A stretch of 14,266 nucleotides of DNA, taken from Clostridium sp. CAG:253 (GTDB lineage Bacteria > Bacillota > Clostridia > Lachnospirales > Lachnospiraceae). Both the position numbers and the translations under genes were made by a program. The DNA is taken from the NCBI GenBank assembly GCA_000436755.1, contig FR887277.1, forward strand, positions 1 through 14,266. The letters run 5' to 3'. The notes under the pieces are model-generated. The model saw only the letters and a list, made by a program, of their open reading frames with translations, was not told where the DNA came from and searched no databases. Position 1 is the first letter of the stretch; each line of letters begins with the position of its first letter. Positions 2,874-14,266 of this stretch are shown here, one piece after another.

Positions 2874-2893
2874 AATAGATATAATGATGCAGT

Positions 2894-2923
2894 ATTGCGA
2901 AAATTGCATGGCAATGAAGCAAT
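2894..2923 (+). promoter_or_regulatory. Nested hairpin in the leader of the FliK-like gene
   Basis: Four copies of one five-base word form two stacked helices. ATTGC at 2894-2898 pairs with GCAAT at 2919-2923, and ATTGC at 2903-2907 pairs with GCAAT at 2911-2915. They are separated by a purine internal loop (GAAA on one side, GAA on the other) and closed by a 3-base loop. CAAT at 2920-2923 could instead pair with ATTG at 2931-2934, which gives a competing fold. It lies in the probable untranslated leader, about 50 bases before the start codon. No known riboswitch class is recognised. Confidence 0.3.
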
Positions 2924-2970
2924 CCGTGGCATTGGTTGGTAATAATAATATTAAAAAAACGAGGAAAAAT

Positions 2971-5202
2971 ATGGACAATAATACAAATAGAATAAATTCA
3001 CTAAATGCAAACAGATTAAACAGCCAGACATCAAACGGACGTGCACAGTCCAGGACCTCCACATCACGCGGCGGAAACGCCGGCACACAAAGTTCAGGTT
3101 CCGTATCACGCACTCCCGGCGGAAACAGTGACTATGGCGTTGCCAGAAGTGCAACCCAGCTCAGAGTGGGTGACATTGTAAAAGGTGAGATTTCTGACCT
3201 AAGGGGCAACGAGATAACTGTCACTCTTGATAACAATACCATATTAAAAGGATATATAGAAGACAGCTCAAAGCTTTCAATCGGACAAACTGCAGCCTTT
3301 TCGCTCAGCAGTCCAAATCCCGGTCAGATTTTGCTCTCCCCTGTCAAAAACAGCTACTCTGATACGGAATTAAATCTTATAAACAAAGCCCTTGAAGAAG
3401 CGGGACTTCCTAATACAGAGCACAATCAGGCAACAGTAAAAGCTCTTATGGACAATCTCCTGCCAATAAACAAAGAGTCGATACAGTCCCTTATGCAACA
3501 GGCTTATGACTGTAAAACAGAAGATTTTTCAACTCTCGCCATAATGAAAAGGCTTATGATGGATATAAATGAAGATACCGTATCACAATTTTCAAGTTAC
3601 AGACACGGGACATATCATCTTATTGACAAGCTTTCTTCGCTTTCTTCGGAAATACCTGATTTGCTTAGTTCACTTTCGCAAAATGCCGATTCACAATCAG
3701 TTGCCGCATTTGGTGAAAAGCTTATATCAATACTTTTTCAGTCATTTAATGAAGAAAATAACATGGCAAACTCCCCTTCCATATCTTTTCTGACTGATTC
3801 AGAGCGTCAGGAGCTTATGGACATACTTTCTAATACGGCAATGACAGAAGATACTCTTGAACAACTTGAAAACGGTACATTGTCTCTCCACGATACACTT
3901 ACCATACTCAGAGACTCTGCCGGAAGCAAATCACTTGTTTTTCCGGACGGAACAAATCCTACAAACGAGCTTTTTCAGCAGACCCTTTTAAACATTGACA
4001 GTACACTTGAATCCGCAACGGATATTTCAAAATTAAAAAATACGGATTTATTTAAAAACATTCCTACTATCAATGAAAATGCACCGATAAACGAAACCAC
4101 TGAAACTTCTGATACTGCTGAGGCATCCGAAGTTTCAGAAGATGCTGGCAATGCTGGTGATTTGTCTGAAAACACTGTAACACAGAACAATGCCGCACCT
4201 GACAGTAAAATTGGATTTGCCGCAAAATTCCTTCATAATATTACGGAAAGTGCAAAAAATTCAATCAACAGCATGTTACAGCAATCATCACAAAACGCTG
4301 ATAATCCGCAGTCATCCGCTTCAAATACTGTTATTGATACGCTCTGCGAAAAATTTCAGACATTAGGCAGAGAAAACGACTACCTTAGTACATTTCTTGA
4401 TAAGGATGCCAGAACAGAACTTTTAAACACGCTCTCAAAATTACCTATAAGCAGATCTCTCATTGTAAAAATTGCTTCGGGAAATGCCAGCGCAAAAGAA
4501 GTTCTTGCTGTCATCAAAAATGTCATACCGCTGTCAGAGCCTGAACTTATAAACGAACTTTTTAAATCCCAGTCTTTTGAAACTTTGTTTTCAAAGGTAC
4601 TGCAAAGTACATGGACTCTTTCACCACAAAAGTTAAAGGATGGAGAAAACATAAATTCTTTCTACAACAAAATGCATGAGCAATTAAAAGATTTTGAATC
4701 ACTTATAAAATCAAACCTTTCAGGTCAGGATTCAGATAATTTAGGTCAAAATGCAAGAGATGCACAGAGCAATATCGAATTTATGAAAACTTTAAGTGAG
4801 GCATTTTCATATTTCCAAATGCCACTAAAGTTGAAAAATCAGGATGCACATGGCGACCTCTATGTATACACAAAGAAAGAAAAATTAAGAAAGAACCTTG
4901 ACAATATACATGTACTTTTACATCTTGACATGGAAAATTTAGGTGCACTGGATGTCTATCTTGATAAAAATCACAATGAAATAACTACAAAATTTATATC
5001 AGATAATGACAAATCAATCGACCTTCTTGCCACAAATGCAGATATGTTAAAAGATGCACTTAACTCTCAGGGATATGCCTGCCATGTTAAAATAGAAAAA
5101 GCTGACGCAAGCACAAGCACTATTGATGAATTTATCAATACAAAAATAAACACGCAGCAGACAACTGAAATGAAAAGATTTTCTTTTGATATAAGAGCTT
5201 AG
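2971..5202 (+). CDS. FliK-like protein (possible flagellar hook-length control)
   Basis: Predicted 743-residue soluble protein with no signal peptide or membrane segment. Residues 1-60 are polar and low-complexity (rich in N, S, T, G). Residues about 62-125 form a small beta-rich domain (LRVGDIVKGEISDLRGNEITVTL, then SIGQTAAFSL). A long helical and polar middle follows, with an acidic Thr/Glu-rich linker around 370-410. The last ~140 residues resemble the C-terminal domain of FliK: a predicted beta region with LHLDMENLGALDVYL, then ITTKFISDNDKSIDLLATNADMLKDALNSQGY. FliK measures hook length and switches flagellar export substrate. The start is ATG at 2971 with GAGG 6 bases upstream. The reading frame stays open back to 2884, but that ATG overlaps promoter-like sequence and lacks a ribosome site. 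It stands alone, diverging from hrcA and converging on a PilZ gene. Flagellar function is inferred from fold-level resemblance; it may be annotated elsewhere as a DUF family. Confidence 0.6.
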   Translation: MDNNTNRINSLNANRLNSQTSNGRAQSRTSTSRGGNAGTQSSGSVSRTPGGNSDYGVARSATQLRVGDIVKGEISDLRGNEITVTLDNNTILKGYIEDSSKLSIGQTAAFSLSSPNPGQILLSPVKNSYSDTELNLINKALEEAGLPNTEHNQATVKALMDNLLPINKESIQSLMQQAYDCKTEDFSTLAIMKRLMMDINEDTVSQFSSYRHGTYHLIDKLSSLSSEIPDLLSSLSQNADSQSVAAFGEKLISILFQSFNEENNMANSPSISFLTDSERQELMDILSNTAMTEDTLEQLENGTLSLHDTLTILRDSAGSKSLVFPDGTNPTNELFQQTLLNIDSTLESATDISKLKNTDLFKNIPTINENAPINETTETSDTAEASEVSEDAGNAGDLSENTVTQNNAAPDSKIGFAAKFLHNITESAKNSINSMLQQSSQNADNPQSSASNTVIDTLCEKFQTLGRENDYLSTFLDKDARTELLNTLSKLPISRSLIVKIASGNASAKEVLAVIKNVIPLSEPELINELFKSQSFETLFSKVLQSTWTLSPQKLKDGENINSFYNKMHEQLKDFESLIKSNLSGQDSDNLGQNARDAQSNIEFMKTLSEAFSYFQMPLKLKNQDAHGDLYVYTKKEKLRKNLDNIHVLLHLDMENLGALDVYLDKNHNEITTKFISDNDKSIDLLATNADMLKDALNSQGYACHVKIEKADASTSTIDEFINTKINTQQTTEMKRFSFDIRA

Positions 5203-5342: not shown

Positions 5343-5726
5343 TTATTCGTTTTCCCCATCTTCATCAGAATGACATTTTGAATATTCGTTCTCTATATCA
5401 TCAAATATATAGTCAAATATTGATGGCATACCCACAAACTCACATCCGTAAAGTGTAGTTCCGTCCTCTTTCTGCTTTCTTCTTACTATCTGCACTACAC
5501 AGTTTAAACAGTCATTCTTTTGTTCAAATTCGAGCCTTGAATTAAAGTAAAAACCTATAGGCAGAACACTTTTAGTTATAAACCCAATACCATTTCTTGA
5601 AATATCTGTTATCTCAACAGGCGCATTTATATTTTTTACATGAACATTGTCCTGTTTAAATAACGACGACACTTCAAGATGCATAGTGATTGGTATACGT
5701 TTACTTCTTCTTTTTTCAGCACCCAT
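5343..5726 (-). CDS. PilZ domain protein, probable cyclic-di-GMP receptor
   Basis: Small cytoplasmic protein of 127 residues consisting of little more than one PilZ domain, which binds the second messenger cyclic-di-GMP. Both binding motifs are visible: the arginine motif RxxxR within KRRSKR (R6 to R10), and the D/NxSxxG motif as DISRNG (D41, S43, G46). The beta-barrel continues to about residue 105 (YGCEFVGM), followed by an acidic tail (DDIENEYSKCHSDEDGENE). The start is ATG at 5726, with a long GGAGGTGAGG ribosome site just upstream. gatB ends 26 bases upstream on the same strand with no terminator between, so it is probably transcribed with gatCAB. The bidirectional terminator at 5250-5293 follows. 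In other bacteria stand-alone PilZ proteins adjust motility, adhesion or exopolysaccharide; the target here is unknown. Confidence 0.9.
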   Translation of the reverse strand: MGAEKRRSKRIPITMHLEVSSLFKQDNVHVKNINAPVEITDISRNGIGFITKSVLPIGFYFNSRLEFEQKNDCLNCVVQIVRRKQKEDGTTLYGCEFVGMPSIFDYIFDDIENEYSKCHSDEDGENE

Positions 5727-9049: not shown

Positions 9050-9979
9050 CTACCCAAACAAACCTGAGAAAAAGTTTGTTATCGCTGTAAATATATTACC
9101 AAAGAAATCCCCAATTTTCTCACCGAGACCCTTTGTATCTACATTTGCAAGGTCAATACCTTTTTCTTTTAATTTGTTATATATATCAGATGCCTGTTTT
9201 GCTATCTTATCAGAATCAATATCTTCTTTAGATACTTTCATCATCATATTTGTAAGCTTTTCAACATCATCATCTGAAAGGTCAAGACCAAGCTCATTTG
9301 CCGCCTGCTCTATTGCATCTCTTATATCAGTTTCAGATGAAAGCTGGTCTTCAAATACTGCCTTTTTAGCTGCTGCAACAAGTTCGGTAACCTTCTGTGT
9401 ATCCCCTACATTTTTTGCAACCTCCGCCGTAGTGACAAGTTCATCTGTTGCCGTATCCATTGTCTTTTCGGATATTTCCTCTCCTGTCATAACAGAATAA
9501 GCTTTCATTGCACCGACAAGTGCCGATGTACCTGATATATCAAAAGGTCCGACAACCGTTACCTTTGCATCTGAAAGTCCCGCCGTAACGAGTGCATTAC
9601 AATACATACCTGATGTGCAGTATGTAATATGTTTTGTCGAAACATTTACACCACTGTCCTCATCTGCCTTTACGACCATAACGGATGATAAAGCTCTCGT
9701 ACCTATAACCGAATCAGACATATAATCACCAAGGTAATCATGTTCATCTTTATTTGTAATCTCAATTGTTTTATAATCGGACAAATCATTTTCGGTAATA
9801 CCAAATCCGTCAAGCACGGCTGCCTTTTCCTTTGCATTAAGGTCTGCTCCAAATGCAATATATTTTGATGTTCCTGTAACTGCATCTGCCGACACCACAT
9901 TTTTCTGTACCGCCACCGAAGTAGCAACAACTCCGGCAGCAAGTACAATACCCATCGCTCTAACTATACACTTTTTCAA
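9050..9979 (-). CDS. Exported DUF1002 family protein
   Basis: Protein of 309 residues, related to the DUF1002 family that includes Bacillus subtilis YpuA; its function is unknown. A signal peptide is clear: MKKCIVR, then a hydrophobic stretch (about 8-24), with a likely cleavage site after A-D-A (residue 33). The mature part begins with an alpha/beta region (YIAFGADLNAKEKAAVLDGFGI). It contains a conserved-looking YCTSGMYCNALVTAGLSDAKVTVVGPFDISGTSALVGAMKAY, split here as YCTSGMYCNALV and VGPFDISGTSALVG. A helical C-terminal half ends in an aromatic, amphipathic tail (FFGNIFTAITNFFSGLFG) that could touch the membrane. The start is TTG at 9979-9977, with ATGAGG 8 bases upstream; the next in-frame ATG would remove part of the signal peptide. 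It follows dapL by 27 bases on the same strand and is probably co-transcribed. Confidence 0.85.
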   Translation of the reverse strand: MKKCIVRAMGIVLAAGVVATSVAVQKNVVSADAVTGTSKYIAFGADLNAKEKAAVLDGFGITENDLSDYKTIEITNKDEHDYLGDYMSDSVIGTRALSSVMVVKADEDSGVNVSTKHITYCTSGMYCNALVTAGLSDAKVTVVGPFDISGTSALVGAMKAYSVMTGEEISEKTMDTATDELVTTAEVAKNVGDTQKVTELVAAAKKAVFEDQLSSETDIRDAIEQAANELGLDLSDDDVEKLTNMMMKVSKEDIDSDKIAKQASDIYNKLKEKGIDLANVDTKGLGEKIGDFFGNIFTAITNFFSGLFG

Positions 9980-11317: not shown

Positions 11318-11362
11318 CATAAAATCAAAGATAGCTGTTCACACCTGTGATGCGAACAGCTA
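11318..11362 (-). terminator. Terminator of the alpha-galactosidase/kinase-phosphorylase operon
   Basis: A perfect 9-base inverted repeat, TAGCTGTTC at 11332-11340 and GAACAGCTA at 11354-11362, encloses a 13-base loop. It starts 7 bases after the stop codon of the kinase-phosphorylase gene. On the minus strand the stem is followed by ATCTTTGATTTTATG, which is U-rich but interrupted. The placement at the end of the operon, before a new promoter, supports the call. Confidence 0.75.
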
Positions 11363-11369
11363 ATATCAT

Positions 11370-13601
11370 TTATGATAATTTTTCATTTATAGTATATTCC
11401 ATTTTTTCAAAATCTACCGTAAGCTCTGCTGATTCTGACTTGTAACTCCATTTTATTTTTAATATTGTATCATATGAAGTAAATTCTATCCTCGCTGCTT
11501 TCTTAAATACACTGCAGGTATTTCTAAAAGCAATCATTTCTATCTGCCTTTTTACAACATCTCTGTCTGCGTTTTCCAATATATACGCTGTGTCAAGATT
11601 TGTTCTGTTGATTTCCTTATGACCATCCTTTCCAGCCTTTCTGACTGCCTCATGATCATTTTTACCAGCAAACAGATCAAGATACCATATCTGCGGTTTA
11701 CCAGGCATAAACAACTGCAAGGCCCTTGCAACGAGCAGCTTCTTGTCATCTTCTCCCAATGCACTGTAAAAGGTTGAATTAACCTGATAATATATATTTT
11801 TCTGACCATGAAGATTTTTTATATAGCCTCCACGATTTACGATAGTATCAATAAGTCCCTGTATTCTTTCCTCTGGTATCAGACCTTTCAGATCGAGAAG
11901 AGGTATCCCGTCATGGCAGCCAAGCATATTAACTGTTGATATATTTTTCTCAATTACTTCTTTTCCCCATCTGACAAGCGTATCACCATTTTTATTTTCA
12001 ATAGCATCTATAATGAGTCCCGGCATAAAGAAGTCATATGTTATATAACCTTTTTTTGCAATCTTTTCATATATCTTCTCATTATATCCTGCATGAATCT
12101 CAGGTAAAAGTTTAAGGTCATAAACTTTAGCTTCCTCTGATACCTTTGAAAGAAGTTCCCATGTTCCCGGCTCATTTAAGAAATTTTTTTCTCCCGGCTC
12201 TTTTGGTGCATATGCAAAAGCATCGAGACGGACTATCTTCACTCCATACAATGCGAGTTTTTTCAGCACCTCCCTATAATAATCCCATACAAGCTCAGAT
12301 TTTATATTAAGATCCATCTGCCCAAGATATCTTTCATTTCCATCGCTGTCACATTCCACTTTCTGATAAAAAGTATTCCAGTATGGTACTTTCTTTCCAT
12401 CCGGCATACGAACCATCAAGATAGGAAGTCCCGGTTTTCTAAAAAACATTTTATCAGTATATTTTTTGTCAGGTATCAAAACTCCATCTTCATTTAATTG
12501 TCCATATCCGTCCCAGAATAAATTCCAATTGATAAAGAAATCTTTATATTCAGAATTTTCCCCATTTTCTAATATATCCTTAAATTGAGGAGAGTTTACT
12601 GAAAGATGATTCATAACAAAATCCATCTTTAGCGTAAGTCCCATATTTGACAGTTCTCTGATATCCTCTTTGGAAGCCATAGTCCCCTCCAGATCATAAT
12701 CGATTACAGAAAATCCTCTGTCAAGATCGGAATGAAATACACTCGGCAACATATAAATTGATGAAAATGCCCCGGATGTATAGCTTTTTATAAATTCAAT
12801 AAGCCCGCTGACATTTCCATTTATACTGTCGGGATAAACATTAAGCATAGGTCTTATGTCAAAATCTTCATATTTTTCAACATACTCTTTATATGAAATT
12901 ATACTTCCATCTATATCAACTATCATTTTTGCACCCGCAACCTGTCCTAAAAGTTTTTCCTGCTCTAGTTTTAAAACAAGTGATATAAAATCACTGCCCG
13001 CATTTGCATTTCTGTTTCTTTTTACTCTTCTCTGATAAGTAAGTTCAGGTGTGCTATGCAGATAAATAGGATAATCTATATTTTTTAAATTCTCATTATT
13101 TCCATGTGTCCATTCCAAAATGATGATACTTATATCTGAAACATCAACATCCTCAAACCATATATCCTCTTTTTTAGTTCCCATCCTTTTTAAGCTAAGG
13201 ATATCTTTTCCGCTTTTAAACTGTTCAAGTATGTTATTTATAGTGTCATAATCTATCTCATCCGGTCCGCATAAATATCTTCTCAAGCCATCTACGCCCG
13301 ATTCATCATATATTTTTTGTCTCATCATGTCATTTTCTACAGGAATCCTTATTGGATAATTATCACCTGAAATAACATAATGTCCGATACCTTTTTCGCC
13401 AAACATCTGTGCAAGCAAAACAGCAAAACTTGACTTTCCTGAACCTGAGCCTCCATATAATGACACAACAATCTTATCTTTATTTTCTATGTTTTCTTTA
13501 AGTTCAGCAAAAAGTTTTGAAAATATATTTTCTGCTTTTTCTTTCTGGTCAGGTCCTATCTCAACAACATCTCCCGGCATATCACCTTTAATCTTTTTCA
13601 T
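11370..13601 (-). CDS. P-loop sugar kinase / GH13_18 sucrose(-phosphate) phosphorylase fusion
   Basis: A 743-residue cytoplasmic protein with two domains. Residues about 1-245 form a P-loop kinase of the uridine kinase/phosphoribulokinase type, with Walker A GGSGSGKSS (K56), then SGDNYP, and IIILEWTHGN with E163 in the Walker B position. Residues about 250-743 are a complete GH13 subfamily 18 phosphorylase, starting NVYPDSINGNVSGLIEFI. Its catalytic residues are all present: nucleophile D460 (VRLDAFAY), acid/base E501 (LLPEIHAGY) and transition-state Asp D564 (GCHDGIPLLD). YQVNSTFYSALG, FMPGKPQIWYLDLFAGKND and EINR are subfamily hallmarks. Such enzymes split sucrose or sucrose 6'-phosphate with phosphate to glucose 1-phosphate and fructose or fructose 6-phosphate. 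The ATG at 13601 is preceded by ATGAGG; an ATG at 13613 lies within that site. It follows a GH36 alpha-galactosidase by 74 bases. The likely role, phosphorylating sucrose freed from raffinose and then cleaving it, is inference. Glucosylglycerate or other glucosides remain possible. Confidence 0.88.
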   Translation of the reverse strand: MKKIKGDMPGDVVEIGPDQKEKAENIFSKLFAELKENIENKDKIVVSLYGGSGSGKSSFAVLLAQMFGEKGIGHYVISGDNYPIRIPVENDMMRQKIYDESGVDGLRRYLCGPDEIDYDTINNILEQFKSGKDILSLKRMGTKKEDIWFEDVDVSDISIIILEWTHGNNENLKNIDYPIYLHSTPELTYQRRVKRNRNANAGSDFISLVLKLEQEKLLGQVAGAKMIVDIDGSIISYKEYVEKYEDFDIRPMLNVYPDSINGNVSGLIEFIKSYTSGAFSSIYMLPSVFHSDLDRGFSVIDYDLEGTMASKEDIRELSNMGLTLKMDFVMNHLSVNSPQFKDILENGENSEYKDFFINWNLFWDGYGQLNEDGVLIPDKKYTDKMFFRKPGLPILMVRMPDGKKVPYWNTFYQKVECDSDGNERYLGQMDLNIKSELVWDYYREVLKKLALYGVKIVRLDAFAYAPKEPGEKNFLNEPGTWELLSKVSEEAKVYDLKLLPEIHAGYNEKIYEKIAKKGYITYDFFMPGLIIDAIENKNGDTLVRWGKEVIEKNISTVNMLGCHDGIPLLDLKGLIPEERIQGLIDTIVNRGGYIKNLHGQKNIYYQVNSTFYSALGEDDKKLLVARALQLFMPGKPQIWYLDLFAGKNDHEAVRKAGKDGHKEINRTNLDTAYILENADRDVVKRQIEMIAFRNTCSVFKKAARIEFTSYDTILKIKWSYKSESAELTVDFEKMEYTINEKLS

Positions 13602-13640
13602 ATAAAACCTCATTTCTGTATATAATCATTTAGAGCTGAA

Positions 13641-13655
13641 GCAGGTAAAACCTGC
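13641..13655 (-). other. Small hairpin between the alpha-galactosidase and the kinase-phosphorylase genes
   Basis: A perfect 6-base inverted repeat (GCAGGT at 13641-13646, ACCTGC at 13650-13655) with a 3-base loop lies 20 bases after the GH36 stop. No U-run follows on the minus strand, so it is not a convincing terminator. It could stabilise an mRNA end or tune expression between the two genes. Confidence 0.4.
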
Positions 13656-13675
13656 CCCAACTCCATTACACTACA

Positions 13676-14266
13676 CTAGCATCTCTTTAACTCAACCTGC
13701 CAGCTCTGATATTCCCCAAGTTCCGGCATAAATGGCATTCCTATGTTCATAAGTGCCTCAGCAGGATATATTTTTCCTGTCTTTACATCTTTATATGTAA
13801 CATTCTCATTTAATCCTTTAAATCTGACATACAACGGCTGCATATTTCCATGCATCTTTAAGCACACAACATTTACAAGCACATCATCTCCGTCTTTTGA
13901 AACAAACTCCCATGCTGCTACCGGATCTTTGTATGGATCACTAAGTCTGTAATATAGACCATTATGAATAAGCTCTGCCTCTTTCTTAAATGTTTTTATC
14001 TGTTCCTTTATCGTATTTTTCTCGGCTTCAGATACTTTTCCCAAATCTAATTCATATCCAAAACTTCCTGACATTGCAACAACACCTCTTGTATCGATAG
14101 ATACACTGCGTCCTGTCTGATGGTTTGGAACTGCTGAAACATGTGCGCCAACTGCTGAAACAGGATAGCCAAATGATGTTCCATACTGGATCTTTGTTCT
14201 ATCTATCGCATCCGTATTGTCACTGCACCATATCTGTGGTGTATAATAAAGCATTCCGGCATCAAA
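13676..14266 (-). CDS. GH36 alpha-galactosidase, C-terminal part, cut by the window edge
   Basis: Alpha-galactosidase removes terminal alpha-1,6-linked galactose from raffinose, stachyose or melibiose. Only the last 196 residues are visible. They begin FDAGMLYYTPQIWCSDNTDAIDR, split as FDAGMLYYTPQIW and CSDNTDAIDR; the first Asp of CSDNTD is the acid/base residue in characterised GH36 enzymes. KIQYGTSFGYPVSAVGAHVSAVPNHQTGR is another hallmark, seen as YGTSFGYPVSAVG and HVSAVPNHQTGR. The rest is the C-terminal beta-domain, ending VELKRC. The catalytic nucleophile lies beyond the right edge, as do the start and promoter. The protein stops where ordinary GH36 enzymes stop, with no C-terminal kinase domain. 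The next gene on the strand, 74 bases on, begins with such a kinase domain. The two genes are probably one transcript. No signal peptide information is available. Confidence 0.93.
   Translation of the reverse strand, partial: FDAGMLYYTPQIWCSDNTDAIDRTKIQYGTSFGYPVSAVGAHVSAVPNHQTGRSVSIDTRGVVAMSGSFGYELDLGKVSEAEKNTIKEQIKTFKKEAELIHNGLYYRLSDPYKDPVAAWEFVSKDGDDVLVNVVCLKMHGNMQPLYVRFKGLNENVTYKDVKTGKIYPAEALMNIGMPFMPELGEYQSWQVELKRC

Follow-up and report, generated by a model that had tools for sequence, protein, structure and literature searches.

Which carbon of sucrose does the sucrose kinase of gut Lachnospiraceae phosphorylate? In Ruminococcus gnavus, AgaSK is a GH36 alpha-galactosidase with a C-terminal sucrose kinase, and its gene adjoins that of the sucrose 6F-phosphate phosphorylase (SPP) RgSPP. 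Excerpts of the published work on this locus leave a gap, in which the kinase is said to give sucrose 6G-phosphate and its SPP partner takes sucrose 6F-phosphate only. A stretch of DNA of 14,266 nucleotides from Clostridium sp. CAG:253 (contig FR887277.1; the window) encodes a kinase and an SPP in one polypeptide, and such a natural fusion provides a direct and cheap test of the phosphorylated carbon. Within the portions of the open-licence literature consulted, we found no printed account of a kinase-SPP fusion and no assayed enzyme that carries one. We propose, with good but not full confidence, that this single chain splits sucrose in two steps, with the product of its kinase feeding its SPP domain.

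Layout of the locus

The fusion gene occupies positions 11370–13613 of the reverse strand, on which all features below lie. Its longest open reading frame has 747 aa from the first ATG, and residue numbers follow this frame. The real protein probably has 743 aa, judging from the sequence around the fifth codon, an ATG at 13601: a Shine-Dalgarno-like GAGG (13608–13611) stands six bases 5' of it, and the 743-aa homologue P0001, which differs at 4 of 743 positions, begins at the equivalent position. Residues 5–248 (12870–13601) form the N-terminal P-loop kinase domain, with a Pfam PRK match at residues 49–202 (E 1e-6). Residues 254–743 (11385–12854) form the GH13_18 SPP domain, matched by Pfam Alpha-amylase at 266–512 (E 1.9e-8) and by PDB chain 6s9u over its whole length (E 5.5e-171). 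The fusion is genuine and no assembly slip, because 398 sequences belong to the cluster of P0001, and further homologues are fused as well (P0002, 740 aa; P0003, 747 aa; P0004, 749 aa; kinase-part identity 86, 58 and 58%). The nearest named relative among the homologues listed is P0009, from Lachnospiraceae.

Upstream, positions 13676–14266 encode the C-terminal 196 aa of a GH36 alpha-galactosidase, whose start lies beyond the window end (Melibiase, E 7.2e-41; GH36 C-terminal domain, E 3.5e-18). This chain stops at 13676, at the point where AgaSK-type chains continue into their kinase, and 62 bp (13614–13675) separate the stop from the kinase-SPP frame. The GH36 enzyme thus carries no C-terminal kinase and, with the stop between them, does not form a whole AgaSK enzyme with the kinase. 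Directly 3' of the fusion gene, a terminator-like hairpin of 14 pairs is found (11332–11362; fold z -3.5), with a tail that is T only in part; a scan of the region detected two such sites, no more than in shuffled sequences (mean 1.3, sd 1.2).

The R. gnavus AgaSK/RgSPP locus and the window have the order galactosidase-kinase-SPP in common, with a homologous kinase, and the same three activities may be expected in the window. AgaSK joins the kinase to GH36, whereas the window protein joins it to SPP. An Agathobacter rectalis plasmid locus shows this order too, with transporter genes, AgaSK, and then an SPP gene overlapping AgaSK by 11 nt. The Clostridium sp. L2-50 locus, known here by description, resembles the window in having a GH36 without a kinase and a kinase apart from it, the two genes being called 'separated' in an excerpt of PMC7688924. 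Identities between the window and its AgaSK/SPP relatives (SPP 62–65%, kinase 46–48%, in-window GH36 part 57–59%) are near the minima given for a four-locus comparison in the part of PMC6521584 consulted (62.5, 44.2 and 60.9%, respectively). The initial annotation had described this galactosidase, the single polypeptide of 743 aa and the gene order, and these descriptions hold, the length with probability.

Residues and folds of the two domains

The phosphorylase counterpart of the window SPP is IcSPP of Ilumatobacter coccineus (PDB 6s9u), whose solved chain of 531 residues is without a kinase domain. The two share 53.5% identity and agree in all 9 of the catalytic and specificity residues that were checked. 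The full GH13 triad read at first is present, with D464, E505 and D568 aligning with IcSPP D223, E264 and D327. At subsite +1, R392, K599, Y609, Q610 and K666 correspond to IcSPP R152, K364, Y377, Q378 and K434. Loop A, KNIYYQ (residues 605–610, 11784–11801), fits KXXYYQ, the signature of strict SPPs according to a review available in excerpt, which lists IcSPP K434 first for fructose-6-phosphate affinity (PMC7178133). The promiscuous TtSPP differs from the window at K666, K599 and Y609 (R, S and H), and sucrose phosphorylase 7qqj differs in subsite +1 at K666 only (R). Lysine stands at the position of K666 in 74 of 75 fused proteins of near-full length (1 truncated) and in all 114 single SPPs, counts that omit P0121 and the fused rows P0072, P0115 and P0237 (GH13 part below about 400 aa). 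We notice that P0121 is a likely chimaera, since only its second half is near-identical to the window. By its residues, the phosphorylase domain belongs with the strict sucrose 6F-phosphate phosphorylases. Its nearest named relatives are from Butyrivibrio and Agathobacter (best 120 of 8000 scored). The predicted model of the full chain (pLDDT 88.7, pTM 0.74) has 6s9u as its best structural match (TM 0.91 by target). The sucrose phosphorylase equivalog model TIGR03852 (NCBIfam) scores 318.3 bits, below its cut-off of 334.4.

In the kinase domain, Walker A GGSGSGKSS (residues 54–62, 13428–13454), SGDNYP and IIILEWTHGN are all found, as listed in the initial annotation. The domain is 46–48% identical to five AgaSK-type chains, a set without the R. 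gnavus AgaSK sequence itself, and 47.0% identical to the named A. rectalis AgaSK. Walker A, GD.YP and EWTH are kept in all 78 fused, all 34 GH36-fused and all 122 kinase-only sequences; for the last, completeness was judged by uniform lengths, and they come from a search whose length limit omits long chains, so their share is uninformative on the frequency of fusion. Homology together with Walker A, GDNYP and EWTH places the window kinase in the AgaSK family rather than among uridine kinases, whose udk model (TIGR00235) gives 25.2 bits against a curated cut-off of 220.3. A GDMPGD motif, to which no role is assigned, lies at residues 10–15 (13569–13586). DMPGD occurs in 75 of 78 SPP-fused kinases and in none of the 34 GH36-fused ones.

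The predicted kinase fold falls in a broad group of small-molecule kinases, including pantothenate and uridine kinases, phosphoribulokinase and the putative fructose-transport kinase 3c8u. This breadth would allow the kinase to act on another sugar, such as fructose or a different alpha-glucoside, with the fusion serving synthesis or a substrate yet to be found; phosphorolysis is reversible, as an excerpt of PMC6720575 states. We regard this alternative as very unlikely, for the closest tested relative, the isolated kinase of R. gnavus AgaSK, phosphorylates sucrose (PMC7688924, in excerpt), subsite +1 of the SPP fits a fructose 6-phosphate leaving group, and the neighbour gene encodes a GH36 galactosidase. 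A scaffold or regulator that has lost catalysis might be suspected from position 88, beside SGDNYP, where the window has I and its near copy P0001 has R; we give it hardly any credence, as Walker A, D84, E167, R196 and R199 are kept and are invariant across a 12-row alignment.

Pairing of kinase and phosphorylase among homologues

The initial annotation supposed that the kinase had moved from the galactosidase to the phosphorylase. The homologues do not bear this out. Among 120 listed kinase homologues, 75 are kinase-SPP chains and 34 are GH36-kinase chains, in a search that covered chains up to about 1307 aa (1.75x the query), so that GH36-kinase-SPP triple fusions fall outside; the named kinase-SPP chains listed are from Lachnospiraceae and Actinomycetota. 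We built a kinase tree from 234 domains reduced to 87 representatives, and an SPP tree from 192 domains (P0121 included) reduced to 50 and then, without P0121 and eight long fused rows, to 41. The single SPPs in these trees come from the 120 closest to the window out of 8000 scored, and distant SPPs are under-sampled. A single clade of fused kinases is rejected in the kinase tree (AU p 1e-12), as is one of fused SPPs in the SPP tree (AU p 0.006). With 50 rows the fused state in the SPP tree needs 8 changes, 4 of them forced, and in each tree (kinase; 41-row SPP) the well supported branches require at least three changes of pairing. The GH36-fused kinases form their own clade with the window kinase outside (support 99/93). 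A local shift of the protein boundary would still fit, since a single clade of the window group and the GH36-fused kinases (AU p 0.34), and one of the window SPP group with two single SPPs, one of which adjoins an AgaSK gene (AU p 0.215), are not rejected. We chose the AU-test groups with the trees already in view, and four of the fused kinases sit on long branches, which makes these p-values softer than they look. The pairing of kinase and SPP thus seems, from these trees, to have changed more than once in evolution. Gains and losses are not separable in unrooted trees, as a single ancient fusion that was later split several times also gives non-monophyly.

Mobile elements were searched as well. 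On plasmids, 353 records matched and 1 covered most of the query; 39 of 40 listed records match residues 256–745 only, at about 35% identity, and are phosphorylases without this kinase. Among phages a single record was returned, MT837371.1. The contig, unverified and 7 kb long, carries a divergent kinase (33%) amid sugar-transporter genes. It looks bacterial and ends right after the kinase, so the region for an SPP lies beyond it. In viral contigs, 0 of 55 pattern matches were confirmed. A search of genome contigs for related loci confirmed 1 of 28 stretches, judged no relevant relative; it sits in what we take to be a malto-oligosyltrehalose synthase-like protein.

A proposed route and the phosphorylated carbon

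In the proposed mechanism, the upstream GH36 enzyme would remove galactose from raffinose-type sugars, the presumed source, and supply sucrose. The N-terminal kinase would transfer the gamma-phosphate of ATP to sucrose, probably at C6 of the fructose unit, giving sucrose 6F-phosphate, which the SPP domain would split with Pi into glucose 1-phosphate and fructose 6-phosphate. The net reaction would be sucrose + ATP + Pi -> glucose 1-phosphate + fructose 6-phosphate + ADP, with two hexose phosphates gained per ATP. This reaction pair, suggested from the outset, appears sound given the residues of a strict 6F-type phosphorylase and a kinase of the AgaSK family.

On the other hand, an excerpt of PMC7688924 states that AgaSK phosphorylates C6 of glucose, the product being named by mass spectrometry. 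Such a product would not feed a 6F-specific SPP, which counts against our reading. The kinase might then make sucrose 6G-phosphate and the fused activities serve separate branches, with the SPP substrate coming from elsewhere, for example by the transporter uptake of sucrose 6F-phosphate proposed in PMC6521584, as far as consulted. We find this improbable, because fusion and neighbourhood with a 6F-signature SPP would then have repeatedly united enzymes without a common intermediate. The repeated pairing argues instead for a 6F-kinase, whose product is the substrate of the SPP.

Channelling of the intermediate, which the initial annotation raised, receives no support from any analysis run. In the predicted model, the kinase joins the SPP at its first barrel strand by a short linker (helix 241–248, strand 256–259). 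In TIM barrels this end generally points away from the active site, which makes a direct tunnel inside a single chain less likely.

We lean, by a modest degree, towards a wider reading, in which AgaSK kinases are ATP:sucrose 6F-phosphotransferases that form with strict SPPs a PTS-independent route, repeatedly fused, split and re-paired in Bacillota and Actinomycetota; AgaSK, with its GH36 fusion, would be a narrow variant, and the printed assignment to glucose C6 would be wrong. If our proposal is true, a single enzyme would yield glucose 1-phosphate and fructose 6-phosphate from sucrose and ATP, and a settled carbon would close the raffinose and sucrose pathway in gut Lachnospiraceae.

A kinase and a phosphorylase in one chain

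On the minus strand, the last 196 residues of a GH36 alpha-galactosidase (13676–14266, from the ORF and domain matches) are followed by a 62-bp gap, an ORF of 747 codons (11370–13613) and a terminator-like hairpin (11332–11362; fold z −3.5 against shuffles). A pattern scan for terminator-like sites found two against a chance mean of 1.3, no excess. Judging from the sequence, the fusion gene more likely starts at its fifth codon (ATG at 13601) than at its first, because this ATG has GAGG six bases upstream and P0001, a near copy of the fusion protein (743 aa, four differences), begins at the matching codon. We number residues in the 747-aa frame.

Residues 49–202 weakly match the Pfam PRK/uridine-kinase family (E 1e-6). 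Residues 254–743 match IcSPP, the strict sucrose 6F-phosphate phosphorylase (SPP) of Ilumatobacter coccineus (E 5.5e-171), with 53.5% identity in the GH13 domain. Alignment places the catalytic residues at D464, E505 and D568, and R392, K599, K605, Y609, Q610 and K666 align with R152, K364, K373, Y377, Q378 and K434 of IcSPP. The initial annotation, which described a kinase joined to a GH13_18 enzyme with its whole triad in one polypeptide, is thus borne out, and the phosphorylase part agrees with a characterised GH13_18 enzyme at all nine sites.

Several of these sites are common to the sucrose phosphorylase 7qqj; therefore K666, which is R in both 7qqj and the promiscuous TtSPP, and loop A carry most weight. 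Loop A reads KNIYYQ and fits KXXYYQ, the pattern of strict SPPs according to a review (PMC7178133). The general sucrose phosphorylase model scores the fusion at 318.3, below its cut-off of 334.4. All nine sites are kept in 112 of 114 SPPs without a kinase and in 63 of the 75 fused proteins whose GH13 domain is nearly complete (window counted); the 12 others miss K605 alone (ten), K605 and K599 (one) or K666 alone (one, a 662-aa chain taken as truncated).

Elsewhere in the window, a protein of 772 aa that carries a FliK (flagellar hook-length control) domain (2884–5202, plus strand) adjoins a PilZ protein (5343–5726, minus strand), which suggests a flagellated host. The gene of a DUF1002 protein (9050–9979, minus strand; E 1.7e-73) is flanked by a short gene reading as gatC and an aminotransferase gene.

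Breadth of the kinase family

Searching with residues 1–250 against candidates of about 411–1307 aa, a limit too short for three-domain GH36-kinase-SPP chains, gave at least 136 matches from the best 7993 candidates. The 120 matches listed comprise 75 kinase-SPP chains, 34 GH36-kinase chains and 11 kinases with a tail of ~140 aa, shares that depend on query, candidate set and length limit. Names given by the sources place fused chains in Lachnospiraceae (Bacillota) and in Propionicimonas, Actinotalea and Nitriliruptoraceae (Actinomycetota). A second search, with a kinase alignment as query, returned 887 proteins; its listing adds 112 to those of the first search, namely 111 kinase-only proteins and one fragment of a fusion, a share reflecting a length limit that excludes long chains.

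The (G)DMPGD motif (fusion residues 10–15; 13569–13586, minus strand) occurs in 75/78 fused, 122/122 kinase-only and 0/34 GH36-fused proteins. The tailed kinases (P0074, P0088, P0090–P0092, P0095, P0100, P0102–P0104, P0120 and also P0341) are about 450 aa long, and their C-terminal ~140-aa domain resembles DUF3237 in the one tail tested (E 4e-4; 20.6 bits, under the Pfam cut-off of 24). The kinase-only P0240 and the SPP P0122 are both given 28381 for the longest contig, which hints that they adjoin each other. We also notice a divergent member of the kinase family at 239–1147 of MT837371.1, an unverified Bacteriophage sp. record; its neighbours read as a gene for a LacI-type regulator and genes of a sugar ABC transporter, and the record looks bacterial.

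Gene order and possible histories

In a plasmid locus of Agathobacter rectalis, genes for an AraC regulator, a solute-binding protein and two permeases accompany those for AgaSK (946 aa, labelled alpha-galactosidase) and SPP (491 aa, labelled sucrose phosphorylase). This locus has the same galactosidase-kinase-SPP order as the window and differs solely in the chain boundary, in agreement with the initial annotation. In contrast, 39 of the 40 plasmid records listed (353 matched) match the GH13 part alone. In A. rectalis the genes for AgaSK and SPP share 11 nt (9578–9588) that are read in different frames, and a slip there could yield a three-domain chain. According to PMC7688924, the galactosidase and kinase genes of Clostridium sp. 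L2-50 are 'separated'; the kinase gene of that strain may be a kinase-SPP fusion like that of the window.

In the 87-domain kinase tree, all six GH36-fused kinases form one clade (support 99/93). The kinase-SPP state takes seven changes there, at least three forced by well supported branches; the fused state takes seven in the 41-domain SPP tree (three forced) and took eight in a first, quick 50-domain SPP tree (four forced), counts that cannot separate fusion from fission. Holding all 38 kinase-SPP kinase rows as one clade is rejected (p 1.1e-12), as is a single clade of fused SPPs in the 41-domain tree (p 0.006). In the SPP tree the window and its fused relative P0003 are sister to each other (100/99), a pairing that has only weak support among the kinases (73/66). 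P0121, a 556-aa SPP, is nearly identical to the window in its second half and not in its first, and is probably an assembly chimaera.

With groups chosen after the trees were seen and four fused kinases on long branches, joining the window group to the GH36-fused kinases (p 0.34) or to two single SPPs, one being the AgaSK neighbour in A. rectalis (p 0.215), is not rejected; joining it to other short fusions gives p 0.041 in the kinase tree (eight) and 0.133 in the SPP tree (five). An AgaSK-like locus whose chain boundary shifted is one possible origin of the window gene. The trees do not establish the initial annotation's transfer of the kinase from galactosidase to phosphorylase; derivation from the galactosidase is one of several possible courses and, given how widely kinase-SPP chains occur, the less natural one.

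Proposed reaction and the phosphorylated carbon

The separate parts and the AgaSK/SPP locus are already known; in the passages retrieved from open-licence papers we found no account of the kinase-SPP fusion, its breadth or its bearing on regiochemistry. PMC7688924 describes phosphorylation of sucrose by the AgaSK kinase in isolation, and strict SPPs convert sucrose 6F-phosphate into Glc1P and Fru6P (PMC7178133, PMC6720575, PMC10112845). By analogy, the kinase domain of the fusion would convert sucrose and ATP into sucrose phosphate and ADP, and the SPP domain would convert sucrose 6F-phosphate and Pi into Glc1P and Fru6P. Taken together, the two steps should yield Glc1P, Fru6P and ADP from sucrose, ATP and Pi.

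This pathway is least secure at the phosphorylated carbon. PMC7688924 places the phosphate added by AgaSK on glucose C6 and identifies the product by mass spectrometry; if this is true, the fused kinase and SPP would share no intermediate. Since the kinase and SPP families are paired repeatedly, we consider fructose C6 the better guess for the site phosphorylated by the fusion kinase.
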